DNA of 64,000 bases from NCBI RefSeq assembly GCF_000970685.1, contig NZ_LAJB01000002.1, forward strand, positions 124,001 to 188,000, read 5' to 3'. A program made the position numbers and the translations under genes. Of this stretch, positions 2,904 to 8,015 are shown in pieces. Under the pieces are notes generated by a model, which was not told the origin of the DNA, ran no database searches, and worked only from the letters and a program-made list of their open reading frames with translations. The first letter of the stretch is position 1; each line of letters begins with the position of its first letter. Source of the DNA: Domibacillus indicus (GTDB lineage: Bacteria; Bacillota; Bacilli; Bacillales; Domibacillaceae).

Positions 2904-3290
2904 CTAGCTCTTTATATAGCATTTCCCATTCACCAGATAACACCTTTCTGCTTTCAGAACAGGAAGATGGTTCTCCAGCGTTACAAAGGTTTCAGTTGTA
3001 TAGGGGTTATAATACACCAGCTCATAATGCTCGAGGCTGCCTCCTTCCTGCCCTGCGTAATCCCCGATCACATAAGCATGAACATTTTTTTGTTTTTCTC
3101 TTCTTACCTGTGCCTGTCCAGCCCTGCTTACTTTAAATTCGACATTGGCCAAAACGAGCGCTTCGCTGTGGGCGATAAGGCGGCGGGTTTTTCCATCCAG
3201 CACGGAAAAAACCTCCTTGCGGACATTTCGGTACACCTGAACCCGCTGGTTGAGCTGCAGCTTCTTTTCGGGTAACAGAGGGTTTGCCAT
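2904..3290 (-). CDS. Hypothetical protein, about 128 residues
   Basis: I do not recognise a family. The start at 3290 (MANPLLPEKK) is preferred over two upstream in-frame ATGs because AGGGGA stands 6 bases before it. The product is basic and rich in beta-forming residues (VQVYRN, FSVLDGKTRRL, ALVLANVEFKV, AYVIGDYAG, YELVYYNPYTTETFVTLENHLPVL), without signal peptide or membrane segment; a small cytoplasmic beta-rich domain is likely. It is transcribed divergently from mntA, about 240 bases away, and has its own terminator, so it is probably monocistronic. Confidence 0.6.
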   Translation of the reverse strand: MANPLLPEKKLQLNQRVQVYRNVRKEVFSVLDGKTRRLIAHSEALVLANVEFKVSRAGQAQVRREKQKNVHAYVIGDYAGQEGGSLEHYELVYYNPYTTETFVTLENHLPVLKAERCYLVNGKCYIKS

Positions 3291-3531
3291 ACAGATTCCC
3301 CTAACCATGTATTTGTTCAAATTCATACTTATTATGCACCTGGCAATGAAAAGGATTTATACATATCAGAATAAAAGCAATGAAGCTTTTTCGGCGAAAG
3401 CCAAAAACGCCGTTCACCTTATATAAATAATATGAATGGACTCTTTAGAAAATACCCTTTTTCCTTTTTTCCGTTTAATGAAAAAACGCCGCCCGCTATT
3501 TCCATCTCTTTGAAAAATGACTAAAAATGGG

Positions 3532-3598
3532 TTGACTTATCTTTCCTTCGGTAATAATATTTTCCCTGAGGAAACTTTTTATTCCTTAGGCATAAAAT
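3532..3598 (+). promoter_or_regulatory. mntA promoter with MntR-type operator
   Basis: TTGACT (3532-3537), a 17-base spacer and TAATAT (3555-3560) form a sigma-A promoter. Just downstream, TTTTCCCTGAGGAAACT (3560-3576) matches 14 of 17 positions of the Bacillus MntR box as I remember it (TTTGCCTTAAGGAAACT). A second, inverted copy-like stretch, TTCCTTAGGCATAAAA (3582-3597), matches the reverse consensus except for one missing base. The position over the transcription start is what is expected for Mn-dependent repression. Confidence 0.7.
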
Positions 3599-4588: not shown

Positions 4589-5335
4589 ATGAAAGCGGTA
4601 GAGGTAAGCGGATTAACGGTGGCGTATGACCGGAAGCCGGTTTTAACGGACGTGCATTTTTCCGTGCCGAAAGGAAAATTAATCGGCATTGTAGGACCGA
4701 ATGGAGCGGGAAAGTCAACGCTGATTAAAGCGATACTCGGACTAATCCCCCGTTCATCAGGAGCCGTCCGCATATTTGGCCAAAAATACTCTCCTAAAAA
4801 CAAAGATGTCGGGTATGTTCCCCAGCGTGGCTCTGTGGACTGGGATTTTCCGACCAATGCACTTGATGTCGTACTAATGGGCAGATACGGATGCTTGGGA
4901 TGGGTTCGGCGGCCGTCTAAAAAAGACGTGGAAGCCGCAAAAGAATGCCTGCAGAAAGTGGGCATGCTTCAATTTGCCGGCCGCCAGATCAGCCAGCTTT
5001 CAGGCGGGCAGCAGCAGCGTGTTTTTTTGGCCCGTGCCCTTATCCAGGAAGCGGACGTTTATTTTATGGATGAACCATTTGCCGGGGTGGACGCGGCTAC
5101 GGAAAAAGCGATCATTTCCCTGCTGAACGAGTTAAAGCGCCGGGGAAAAACAGTGCTGGTGGTCCATCACGATTTACAGACAGTCGGAGAATACTTTGAC
5201 TGGACAATGCTGCTGAATCGAAAACTGATTCAATGCGGACCGACCAAAGATGTGTTTACCATCTCTCATTTACAGCGGACCTATGGCGGAAAGCTGGCAT
5301 TTTTGGAAAAAGAACAAATGCTGATTAAACAGTAA
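4589..5335 (+). CDS. mntB: Manganese ABC transporter ATP-binding protein
   Basis: ABC ATPase of 248 residues that powers the MntCD permeases from the cytoplasmic face. Walker A is GPNGAGKST, the Q-loop lies in VPQRGSVDWDFP, the signature is LSGGQQQR, Walker B with catalytic Glu is VYFMDEPF, and the switch His is in VVHHD. The VPQR...DWDFPT stretch is characteristic of metal-type (ZnuC/MntB) ATPases. It starts 13 bases after mntA with a strong AAGGAGGAG site and is followed within 13 bases by mntC, so the operon is tight. Confidence 0.93.
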   Translation: MKAVEVSGLTVAYDRKPVLTDVHFSVPKGKLIGIVGPNGAGKSTLIKAILGLIPRSSGAVRIFGQKYSPKNKDVGYVPQRGSVDWDFPTNALDVVLMGRYGCLGWVRRPSKKDVEAAKECLQKVGMLQFAGRQISQLSGGQQQRVFLARALIQEADVYFMDEPFAGVDAATEKAIISLLNELKRRGKTVLVVHHDLQTVGEYFDWTMLLNRKLIQCGPTKDVFTISHLQRTYGGKLAFLEKEQMLIKQ

Positions 5336-5348
5336 AGGAGTGAGAGAA

Positions 5349-6632
5349 GTGAATCAAATCTGGCAGTCCATTGCATCTGACGGCAATACGCAGTGGGTAT
5401 TATGGAGTACACTGCTTCTTGGCATTGCGAGCGGCATACTCGGAAGCTTTGCCCTGTTAAAAAAACAAAGCCTTGTGGGGGATGCGGTGGCACATGCCTC
5501 CCTCCCCGGCATTTGCCTGGCGTTTATGGTCATTGGCGAGAAAAATTTCTTTCTTCTACTGGTGGGAGCAGCGGCTACCGGGCTGCTCGCCGCTTACACC
5601 ATCCAGCTTATTTCAGGAACGACACGCATAAAAAAAGATACGTCGATTGGACTGGTGCTGTCTGTTTTCTTCGGGGCAGGCATTGTTTTGCTGACGAAAG
5701 TTGCCCAGATGCCCAGCGGAAATCAAAGCGGCTTAAATGATTTTATTTTCGGGCAGGCTGCTTCACTCGTCGGGCGCGACGTGCAGATGATGGCAATAAC
5801 AGCGGCCGCCGTTATTCTGGTTGTGCTGCTGCTGTTTAAAGAATTGAAAATCAGCACCTTTGACGCCGATTTTGCCAGAGGAATCGGCCTTCCGGTAAAA
5901 GGGTTAAACTTTTTATTTATGTCGCTGCTCGTTCTGACCATTGTGATCGGTATCCAGGCTGTCGGGGTTATTTTAATGGCCGCCCTTTTAATTACCCCTG
6001 CTGTCTCGGCCCGTTACTGGACGGATTCGTTAACGAAAATGGTTATTATTTCAAGCTTTTTCGGTGGAATGTCCGGCATGATCGGAACCTTAATCAGCAC
6101 GCTCGGAAAAGGGCTGTCGACCGGCCCTTTTATTGTTCTCTCGGCTACATTTTTCTTTGCCGTTTCCGTATTATTTTCTCCGCACCGCGGAATCGTTTCG
6201 ACGCTCCTCCGCAGAAAGCAAAACGACCGGCGGCTGGCGTTTAAATGGATCATGAAAGAGCTGTACAATCAGCCAGAGCCCCTGTCAAGAAATAACCTTT
6301 TTCTTCAGTCACATTTTTCAAATGGACAGTGCAAAGCCGTGCTTAAGGACTTGCTGGAAAAAGGGTATATACAGGAAAAAGAACGGATCGAGTTAACGGT
6401 TGCGGGAAAAGAAAAAGCATATCAATACAAGCTGGTGGATGAAATTCTGGAGCTGAAGGATATGTACCCGAATGACATGGCGTTTGATCATCTGGAATGG
6501 CTCGAATATGGCCAGGCAGAACAGATATCCAGAGAACAGCTGGTTGAAATCGATGAAAAAATTACCGCTTTCCATGATCAATTTGTTCTTCCTTCTTTCA
6601 CGTCTGCTTATGAAGGAGGAAACAAATCATGA
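5349..6632 (+). CDS. mntC: Manganese ABC transporter permease with C-terminal winged-helix-like extension
   Basis: About 427 residues. The GTG at 5349 is favoured since AAAGGAG lies 8-9 bases before it; the GTG at 5340 would overlap that site. Residues about 10-285 hold the eight or more membrane segments of the ABC-3 (ZnuB/MntC) permease family, with GDAVAHASLPGI near the start. After about residue 290 the protein becomes hydrophilic (NNLFLQSHFSNGQCKAVLKDLLEKGYI) and looks like a winged helix followed by a helical tail, resembling DtxR-family parts. Bacillus MntC has a similar long tail, so this is normal for the family. It overlaps mntD by four bases (ATGA). Confidence 0.92.
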   Translation: MNQIWQSIASDGNTQWVLWSTLLLGIASGILGSFALLKKQSLVGDAVAHASLPGICLAFMVIGEKNFFLLLVGAAATGLLAAYTIQLISGTTRIKKDTSIGLVLSVFFGAGIVLLTKVAQMPSGNQSGLNDFIFGQAASLVGRDVQMMAITAAAVILVVLLLFKELKISTFDADFARGIGLPVKGLNFLFMSLLVLTIVIGIQAVGVILMAALLITPAVSARYWTDSLTKMVIISSFFGGMSGMIGTLISTLGKGLSTGPFIVLSATFFFAVSVLFSPHRGIVSTLLRRKQNDRRLAFKWIMKELYNQPEPLSRNNLFLQSHFSNGQCKAVLKDLLEKGYIQEKERIELTVAGKEKAYQYKLVDEILELKDMYPNDMAFDHLEWLEYGQAEQISREQLVEIDEKITAFHDQFVLPSFTSAYEGGNKS

Positions 6633-7513
6633 GTTATGAAATGTGGATCATTGTCACCGGCGCTTTAGTAGGTGCTTCCTGCGGGGTGATCGGCGCATTT
6701 TTGATTTTGCGGAAGATCGCTATGCTGGCCGATGCGATCAGCCATACCGTCCTGCTCGGCATTGTGCTGGCTTTTCTCGTCAGCCACAGCATGAACGGAG
6801 CGTTTATGCTGGCCGGCGCTGTTCTGGTCGGACTTTTTACTGCTTTTGCTGTTCAACTGCTGAATTCGGGCGGAATTCAGGAGGATGCGTCGATCGGAGT
6901 GGTGTTTACGTCCCTTTTCGCCCTGGGCGTCATCCTGATCTCCCTTTATGCCAAAGATGTCCATCTGGATGTGGAGCATGTGCTGATGGGGGAAATCGCC
7001 TTTGTTCCGTGGGAAACCGTTTCGCTGCTTTCTTTCGGCGAGCTGCCGAAAGCATTTGTAATGCTCGGATCGATCTTTTTGCTGGATCTTCTCCTGATTA
7101 CGCTTTTTTACAAGGAATTTAAAATCACTTCCTTTGATCCGGGGATGGCAGCGGCACTCGGCATTCCGGTCCTGCTGATTCATTATGTGTTAATGGTAAT
7201 GGTTTCGGTCACATCGGTTGCCGCTTTTGACAGCGTGGGGGCTATTTTGGTCGTGGCCATGCTGATTGCCCCCGGCGCCACCGCTTATTTGCTCACAGAC
7301 CGGTATTCGGCGATGCTCCTTTTAAGCGGCGGGATCGGTGTGCTCGACAGTACGGCCGGCTACTTTATCGCTAAAGCCTTTGATGTATCCATCTCCGGCT
7401 CCATGGCTGTCGCGGCAGGAATTATATTTACCCTGGCCTGGATCCTGTCGCCCAGGTACGGGCTGCTCTCAAGACTCTTCAGCAGGCATGCTGTGCATAA
7501 ACTACAACGGTAG
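6629..7513 (+). CDS. mntD: Manganese ABC transporter permease
   Basis: Second ABC-3 permease of the system, 294 residues, with about eight to nine hydrophobic segments and the family motifs LADAISHTVLLGI near the N terminus and GAILVVAMLIAPGATAYLL towards the C terminus. It would pair with MntC to form the transmembrane channel. Start ATG at 6629 overlaps the mntC stop and has AAGGAGGAAAC upstream, indicating translational coupling. Sixteen bases separate its stop from the mntR-like gene, so that regulator is probably expressed from the same transcript. Confidence 0.93.
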   Translation: MSYEMWIIVTGALVGASCGVIGAFLILRKIAMLADAISHTVLLGIVLAFLVSHSMNGAFMLAGAVLVGLFTAFAVQLLNSGGIQEDASIGVVFTSLFALGVILISLYAKDVHLDVEHVLMGEIAFVPWETVSLLSFGELPKAFVMLGSIFLLDLLLITLFYKEFKITSFDPGMAAALGIPVLLIHYVLMVMVSVTSVAAFDSVGAILVVAMLIAPGATAYLLTDRYSAMLLLSGGIGVLDSTAGYFIAKAFDVSISGSMAVAAGIIFTLAWILSPRYGLLSRLFSRHAVHKLQR

Positions 7514-7529: not shown

Positions 7530-7925
7530 ATGCCCACTTCCGGCATGGAGGATTATATTGAGCAAATATACGTGTTAACAATGACCAGAGGATATGCGAA
7601 GGCATGTGAGATTGCGGAAGCATTAAGCGTCCATCCTTCCTCTGTAACCAGAATGGCTAAAAAATTATCGCGTGAAAACTACCTGGTGTATGAAAAATAC
7701 CGGGGCATTCAGTTAACGAGCCGTGGAGAAGAAGCAGGAAAAAACCTTTATCGGAAGGACAGAGTGCTGAAAAAGCTTCTTCATTTAATAGGTGTGGAAA
7801 ACCATGCCATTGCCAGCGAAATTAAAGGCATGAAGCAGACATTAAGCCCGGGCACCATCGAAAAAATGGAGCTGCTTGTTGAATTTCTGGAGCAGGAAAA
7901 AAAGCAGAACCCGCTTTTTTCCTGA
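7530..7925 (+). CDS. MntR-like DtxR-family regulator with altered metal site
   Basis: A 131-residue protein from ATG 7530 (GGGGAAAGG upstream) that aligns without gaps to remembered B. subtilis MntR over its first 110 residues. The winged helix-turn-helix is well kept (IAEALSVHPSSVTRMAKKL; YLVYEKYRGIQLTSRG). Of the six MntR manganese ligands, Asp8 and Glu11 are present, but His77 is Asp, Glu99 is Lys, Glu102 is Lys and His103 is Gln. Mn binding as known for MntR therefore seems lost or greatly changed. It is the last gene of the mntABCD operon, unlike the usual separate mntR. It could be an apo-active repressor, a modulator of a true MntR elsewhere, or a sensor of another signal. Confidence 0.85.
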   Translation: MPTSGMEDYIEQIYVLTMTRGYAKACEIAEALSVHPSSVTRMAKKLSRENYLVYEKYRGIQLTSRGEEAGKNLYRKDRVLKKLLHLIGVENHAIASEIKGMKQTLSPGTIEKMELLVEFLEQEKKQNPLFS

Positions 7926-7973
7926 CTGAAAAGTTGCGCTGACTTCTGGTTTGTTCTCTCTTCTCTTACTATG

Positions 7974-8015
7974 AAAAGCGCCGAAAAGAGAAATTTCTCT
8001 TTCCGGCGCTTTTTT
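7974..8015. terminator. Bidirectional terminator between mnt operon and methyltransferase
   Basis: A near-perfect hairpin, AAAAGCGCCGAAAAGAGAAA / TTTCTCTTTCCGGCGCTTTT, with T runs in both directions. It ends the mnt operon on the plus strand and can end the convergent transporter-methyltransferase operon on the minus strand. Confidence 0.85.

Follow-up and report, generated by a model that had tools for sequence, protein, structure and literature searches.

The E11K and H77A variants of the manganese-responsive repressor MntR reportedly keep their Mn-responsive activity, and DtxR(E175K), a Glu-to-Lys variant of a DtxR-family repressor, is said to be iron-independent. In MntR, both Mn2+ ions are bridged by Glu99 and Glu102, and in the Bacillus halodurans protein Glu81 forms a hydrogen bond with His77, according to one report (PMC6860424); two interdimer salt bridges are described for MntR in another (PMC11275975). 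An engineered MntR in which a disulfide between D8C and E99C was meant to take the place of the second Mn2+ adopted a Mn-like conformation in simulations without the positive polarisation that Mn2+ provides, which its authors name as a possible cause of its low DNA affinity; in the gel assay of the same paper, DNA binding was shown for neither this variant nor the wild type (PMC9861239). DtxR(E175K) is described as hyperactive in the title of a reference cited by a further paper (PMC10317159).

As judged from its sequence, the protein P0001, encoded at the tail of a manganese-type ABC importer operon (Table 1), is a naturally occurring MntR whose metal pocket has been rebuilt and contains lysines, on an intact DNA-binding frame. 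The operon lies in the window, by which we mean the whole 64,000-nucleotide stretch of DNA analysed, and its last gene encodes this regulator, which the original prediction had placed at the end of mntABCD. The hairpin downstream of the regulator gene was not listed by a consensus scan. Separately, we observed that the C-terminal extension of the mntC-like permease (window 6180–6629) has no Pfam match and looks, by eye, as if a winged helix had been joined to the permease. Adjoining the operon on the minus strand (window 2907–3326) is a gene for a 140-residue protein that matches PF25735 (Mycobacterium phage L5 gene 82 protein, E 2.8e-29), which is unexpected for a genome of this group.

Table 1 Features of the importer operon, its promoter and its terminal regulator (window coordinates).
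Feature	Position	Strand	Basis or remark
Promoter-like TTGACT, 17, TAATAT	3532..3560	+	9/12 matches; MntR-like box begins at last base
MntR-like box TTTTCCCTGAGGAAAC on mntA promoter	3560..3575	.	13/16 identical to B. subtilis mntH site
mntA-like substrate-binding lipoprotein, PF01297	3631..4575	+	start ATG 3631 chosen by eye
mntB-like ABC ATPase	4589..5335	+	profile match
mntC-like permease, PF00950, C-terminal extension of ~140 residues	5340..6632	+	profile match
mntD-like permease	6629..7513	+	groups with MntDs of mntR-ended operons
P0001, MntR-type repressor, rebuilt metal pocket	7530..7925	+	131 aa ORF, last gene of operon 3631-7925
Codons of residues 8-11, domain-1 ligands Asp8 and Glu11 kept	7551..7562	+	alignment
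Recognition helix HPSSVTRMAKKLSR, codons of residues 35-48	7632..7673	+	base contacts His35, Pro36, Ser37 kept, Lys41 -> Arg
Codons of residues 77-81, His77 -> Asp, second-shell Glu81 -> Lys	7758..7772	+	alignment
Codons of residues 99-103, Glu99 -> Lys, Glu102 -> Lys, His103 -> Gln	7824..7838	+	alignment
Terminator-like hairpin and T tail, 3' of regulator	7973..8014	+	-25.5 kcal/mol, z -6.6

P0001 aligns with B. subtilis MntR (1on1) without gaps over residues 1–124 (phmmer, E 9.6e-35), and this alignment bears out the one given in the original prediction: Asp8 and Glu11 are retained, and the other four ligands are replaced (H77D, E99K, E102K and H103Q). Two of the six Mn ligands are therefore present, short of the full set of a Mn-responsive MntR, and the second-shell residue Glu81 is a lysine. 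Both domains are nonetheless recognisable, with matches to PF01325 (N-terminal winged helix, E 4.8e-19, above the cut-off) and to PF02742 (metal binding and dimerisation, E 2.1e-9, 37.7 bits against a cut-off of 27), and P0001 belongs to the family of the NCBIfam MntR model PRK03902 with a score of 152.4 against a cut-off of 138. For comparison we collected MntR-type sequences by tblastn at E <= 1e-6 on collected loci, giving 177 matches and 121 distinct sequences, namely 116 with all six ligands, P0001 and four altered proteins from another clade; a fifth member of that clade, at L147 (a gene also contained in L153), scored under the tblastn cut-off and is absent from counts and tree. Neither the six ligands nor Glu81 vary among the 116 canonical proteins. 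Among 54 near-invariant positions, 16 are changed in P0001, including all five domain-2 pocket sites (hypergeometric p 0.0014 for this site set, picked after the fact).

These replacements alter the charge of the protein as well as its ligands. In a count that excludes histidine, so that E81K contributes +2 and H77D contributes -1, residues 1–124 of P0001 carry a net charge of +2, against a mean of -8.1 (range -12 to -3) for canonical MntRs, and the His77-Glu81 pair has become Asp77-Lys81. The earlier argument that two lysines in the site should repel Mn gave half of the picture; the same lysines, E99K and E102K, together add +4, equal to the charge of two Mn2+. A structure model predicted the fold of P0001 with confidence, its top match, tied with many others, being the metal-free MntR E11K structure, and this comparison did not discriminate between metal-bound and metal-free forms. 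At the dimer interface, the hydrophobic positions are identical or still hydrophobic, on which ground P0001 may form a homodimer; the polar interface residues 108 and 115 are changed, and the C-terminus is ~8 residues shorter than that of the host's own MntR (139 aa).

The DNA-binding side of the protein is largely kept, as had been claimed for the winged helix, with the match to PF01325 and with DNA contacts that are mostly identical or K/R swaps, the exceptions being Q44K, V25A and S26C. At near-invariant sites for DNA or dimer-dimer contact, four of 14 are changed in P0001, each by a K/R or D/E swap. Both interdimer salt-bridge pairs are retained, as Arg20-Glu55 and Glu27-Arg58.

The box on the mntA promoter, which the original prediction had described as close to the MntR consensus, indeed resembles the B. 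subtilis mntH site given in the literature (PMC9861239) and sits on a promoter-like sequence, itself a weak match when taken alone (the region has four such sites, where 6.0 would be expected). An MntR-like box upstream of a manganese importer is present by a degenerate pattern, KTTNCCYYRRGGNAAM, that was built from the window site and the mntH site and that the window site fits by construction. Across the 3.6 Mb genome the exact pattern matched the window site only, and a backwards control gave two matches; because of this control and of the way in which the pattern was built, the evidence for an operator is likeness to known boxes and location, not rarity. Allowing one mismatch gave 23 further genomic sites (51 for the backwards control with up to one mismatch), none of which looked tied to a manganese gene when downstream reading frames were inspected by eye, without family searches, and in the window up to two mismatches gave 10 sites against 10.8 expected. 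The exact pattern occurred at 10 sites in seven of the 13 genomes of the genus, fewer than for the backwards control (24), and by eye two of the 10 lie upstream of Mn-type ABC genes: the window site and one in G001, the box at locus L251 of the same genus preceding another gene for a Mn-type ABC ATPase by 43 bases. In related tail operons (L200-L209, L212), the best site within 400 nt upstream deviates from the pattern at one base in 10 of the 11, for example TTTGCACTAAGGAAAC, and at two in L207, as raw counts; the corresponding sites have four mismatches in L213 and two in L214.

A second MntR with intact ligands, which the original prediction had proposed looking for, is present elsewhere in the genome. 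The gene adjoining this canonical mntR lies beside mntR in 13/13 genomes of the genus, indicating that the canonical protein is the native copy of the genus; the same neighbour was not found at the threshold used in 11 loci tried from the family. The operon type of the window was found in none of the other 12 genus genomes, where the best MntD match is 43%. At the level of the family, MntD is matched at 66–67% in three genomes, and no mntR match was found in the stretches around those three genes. A tree of 37 MntDs places the window MntD beside its sister L200 (97/83) within an 11-member group (97/95), and all ten other operons of that group end in an mntR that carries all six ligands. Named loci with the order mntABCD-mntR come from Rossellomorea species, Bacillus haikouensis and B. 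coahuilensis (nine of 80 named loci), their MntDs being 66–73% identical to that of the window. The operon was probably acquired by horizontal transfer of mntABCD-mntR into a host with its own MntR, and an acquired operon would bring a redundant regulator. In the MntR tree, P0001 sits on a very long branch beside, not inside, the canonical group, and its exact placement is not given by the tree; from the position of its gene in the operon we infer that it descends from the former canonical mntR there.

Surveying 397 genomes of the order for MntR matches at E <= 1e-12 and reading two-match genomes from the resulting table, we found two matches in eight: the window genome, G075, G160, G194, G266, G338, G361 and G365. 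In six of the eight the second gene ends a Mn/Zn-type ABC operon, and in all six its ligands are altered, with the strings DEDKKQ (P0001), REHKEH (twice), KLHKES, TLHKES and RLHREM; the last of these strings was taken by eye from an alignment, as tblastn did not report that protein. All six have Lys or Arg at position 99. The operons of G160, G338 and G361 contain a single permease gene and differ in gene order. The second genes of G075 and G194 retain DEHEEH and are not flanked by matching ABC genes, and in genomes with a single match the tail mntR has all six ligands intact in 13/13 examined. As a separate observation, the six-ligand second MntR of G075 (L154 6899-7327) lies beside genes that, on inspection by eye, resemble those for a cytochrome, a ZIP-type metal transporter and a multicopper nitrite reductase. 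Of the 397 genomes, only G046, G089 and G122, which belong to a single genus (g28), had no MntR match at E <= 1e-12, two of them also having none at 1e-8, a possible loss of MntR.

Four of the altered proteins form one clade and a fifth aligns with them, which argues for at least two origins, not six. This clade II (L149, L150, L151, L152 and L153) is like P0001 in that its genes are second MntR-like copies closing a Mn/Zn-type ABC operon, in coexisting with a canonical MntR in the genome, in carrying Lys or Arg at 99 and in its net charge of -2 to +1 (four counted). Unlike P0001, clade II keeps His77 and Glu102, has lost Asp8, scores under the PRK03902 cut-off and has the recognition helix xVPSxSKM, so that it need not bind the same box. 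In the tree, clade II (four rows: L144, L145, L146 and L148) is separate at 100/100, and P0001 lies on the canonical side of this split, not in clade II, its bootstrap being unsettled on a very long branch. In the MntD tree, L151 and L152 cluster (100/99) with L213 and L214, two operons that end in a canonical mntR. Clade II is rare: when the G160 protein was used as the query against 299 genomes, matches above the canonical level came from G160 itself and from G266 only.

The reading that we favour, tentatively and with somewhat less than even confidence, is that P0001 is an MntR-type repressor that no longer uses Mn, its Lys99 and Lys102 pairing with Asp8 and Glu11 in place of Mn2+. The mntR of the transferred operon would have been redundant, hence free to lose sensing; Lys99 and Lys102 of helix alpha5 would then form salt bridges to Asp8 and Glu11 of helix alpha1, at the place where the DNA-binding domain is ordinarily held to the dimer domain by Mn2+, with Asp77-Lys81 standing in for the His77-Glu81 pair. 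Biased in this way to the DNA-binding conformation without metal, P0001 would occupy the box at the start of mntA and exert a constitutive negative feedback that tracks operon expression, beneath the Mn-responsive layer of the canonical MntR. Asp8 and Lys99 could thereby supply both the lock and the charge. An apo-repressor and a salt bridge replacing the metal as lock had both been put forward in the original prediction; they are plausible on the indirect basis of retained Asp8 and Glu11, charge balance and Lys/Arg99 in a separate clade, and the interpretation offered there is, overall, partly supported.

No ortholog of P0001 was found in the other 12 genomes of the genus, making the copy unique among 13, or in 23 other genomes of the family. 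None stood above the canonical level among the best matches listed for 396 other genomes of the order, none appeared in 397 other genomes of the class at E <= 1e-37 (a threshold that misses orthologs under ~130 bits), and none was closer than canonical MntR among the best 80 of 541 matches in named genomes. Plasmids gave 115 records, all under 60%, phages gave one record at 46% and viral contigs none. The closest relatives overall are canonical MntRs, with 49–51% identity at best, and mean identity to the canonical proteins is 66% in domain 1 and 31% in domain 2; for canonical pairs with a domain-1 identity of 58–74%, domain 2 is at least 40% identical at the 1st percentile. We considered this domain-wise divergence as proof of selection and have kept it as a weak point, since both domains of P0001 are fast and its domain-2/domain-1 nonsynonymous ratio is close to that of canonical MntRs (synonymous sites being saturated), so that selection for DNA binding does not follow from this pattern by itself.

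Such rates are also what would be expected of a redundant transferred mntR on which selection has relaxed, which no longer binds metal and which is turning into a pseudogene without a regulatory role, a serious rival that we regard as rather unlikely. Decay accords with the canonical MntR in the genome, with a copy found in one of the 13 genus genomes, with the very long branch on which both domains are accelerated at about the usual ratio and with the C-terminus shortened by ~8 residues, but it would have to leave invariant contact sites with K/R or D/E swaps only and a fold that is still predicted with confidence. Four of the other 12 changes are, moreover, Glu/Lys or His/Asp within one pocket, and random loss would not favour Glu -> Lys at three pocket positions. 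A frame error or a plain pseudogene is not a simple answer, as the frame is open through 131 codons.

It is improbable that P0001 acts as an anti-repressor, binding the mntA box weakly or forming mixed dimers with the canonical MntR and so blunting Mn-dependent repression. A recognition helix and box shared with the canonical protein and interface hydrophobics that are identical or hydrophobic would allow it, but the rest of domain 2 is down to 31% mean identity, polar interface residues 108 and 115 are changed, and a gene placed in the operon that it would derepress would create positive feedback on the uptake of a metal whose excess is toxic. We give equally little credence to a rebuilt pocket that senses another ligand, for instance an anion, or a single metal coordinated by Asp8, Glu11 and Asp77: three lysines and three carboxylates do share one pocket, and E11K structures with Mn2+ and Cd2+ (4hx4, 4hx7), as far as their entries go, indicate that one lysine does not exclude metal, yet the Mn-bridging Glu99 and Glu102 are both Lys, His77 and His103 are gone, and no orthologs show the new pocket being maintained.

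Repression without metal is, in comparison, supported by the change of all five domain-2 pocket sites while contact changes are K/R or D/E swaps, and by the promoter box, the origin of the operon and the Lys/Arg99 clade at ABC-operon tails; a lysine in the pocket fits the fold, as MntR E11K structures exist. Weakening it are the failure to find an ortholog, the speed of both domains at the usual ratio, the changes at 108, 115, Gln44, Val25 and Ser26, the ~8 missing C-terminal residues and the D8C-E99C variant, which also has no Mn bridge at that pair and for which DNA binding was not shown. The broader proposition, that a tail sensor has more than once become a metal-independent repressor in which Lys or Arg replace Mn2+ as lock and charge, acting as a constitutive brake beside the true sensor, seems to us doubtful.

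A search of the open-access literature did not find a paper on a natural MntR without metal ligands. If Lys99 and Lys102 do replace two Mn2+, P0001 would offer a natural answer to what the metal contributes to MntR activation (clamp, charge or both); it would also provide, ready to use, a repressor active without metal, and would illustrate the route by which a sensor can turn into a constitutive repressor after operon transfer. Automatic annotation, through PRK03902, would call this protein without a Mn site 'transcriptional regulator MntR'.

Compared with known systems, P0001 shares with the MntRs of B. subtilis and B. halodurans (PRK03902) both domains, the recognition helix and an MntR-like box on the promoter of a Mn ABC importer, and differs from them in the replacement of four of six ligands and of Glu81 and in a net charge of +2 versus about -8. 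Canonical tail mntR genes in Rossellomorea, Bacillus haikouensis and B. coahuilensis have the same operon order and place as the window gene; unlike P0001, their products have all six ligands, and in the 13 genomes of the order examined for such a tail mntR it is the only MntR match (E <= 1e-12). Residue 175 of DtxR(E175K) belongs to neither of the two domains present in P0001. Among laboratory mutants, MntR E11K, according to its structure entries (PDB 4hx8, 4hx4, 4hx7), has a pocket lysine as P0001 does and still crystallises with Mn2+ and Cd2+, and engineered MntR D8C-E99C (PMC9861239) resembles P0001 in bridging the two domains at the 8/99 pair, in its case by a disulfide.
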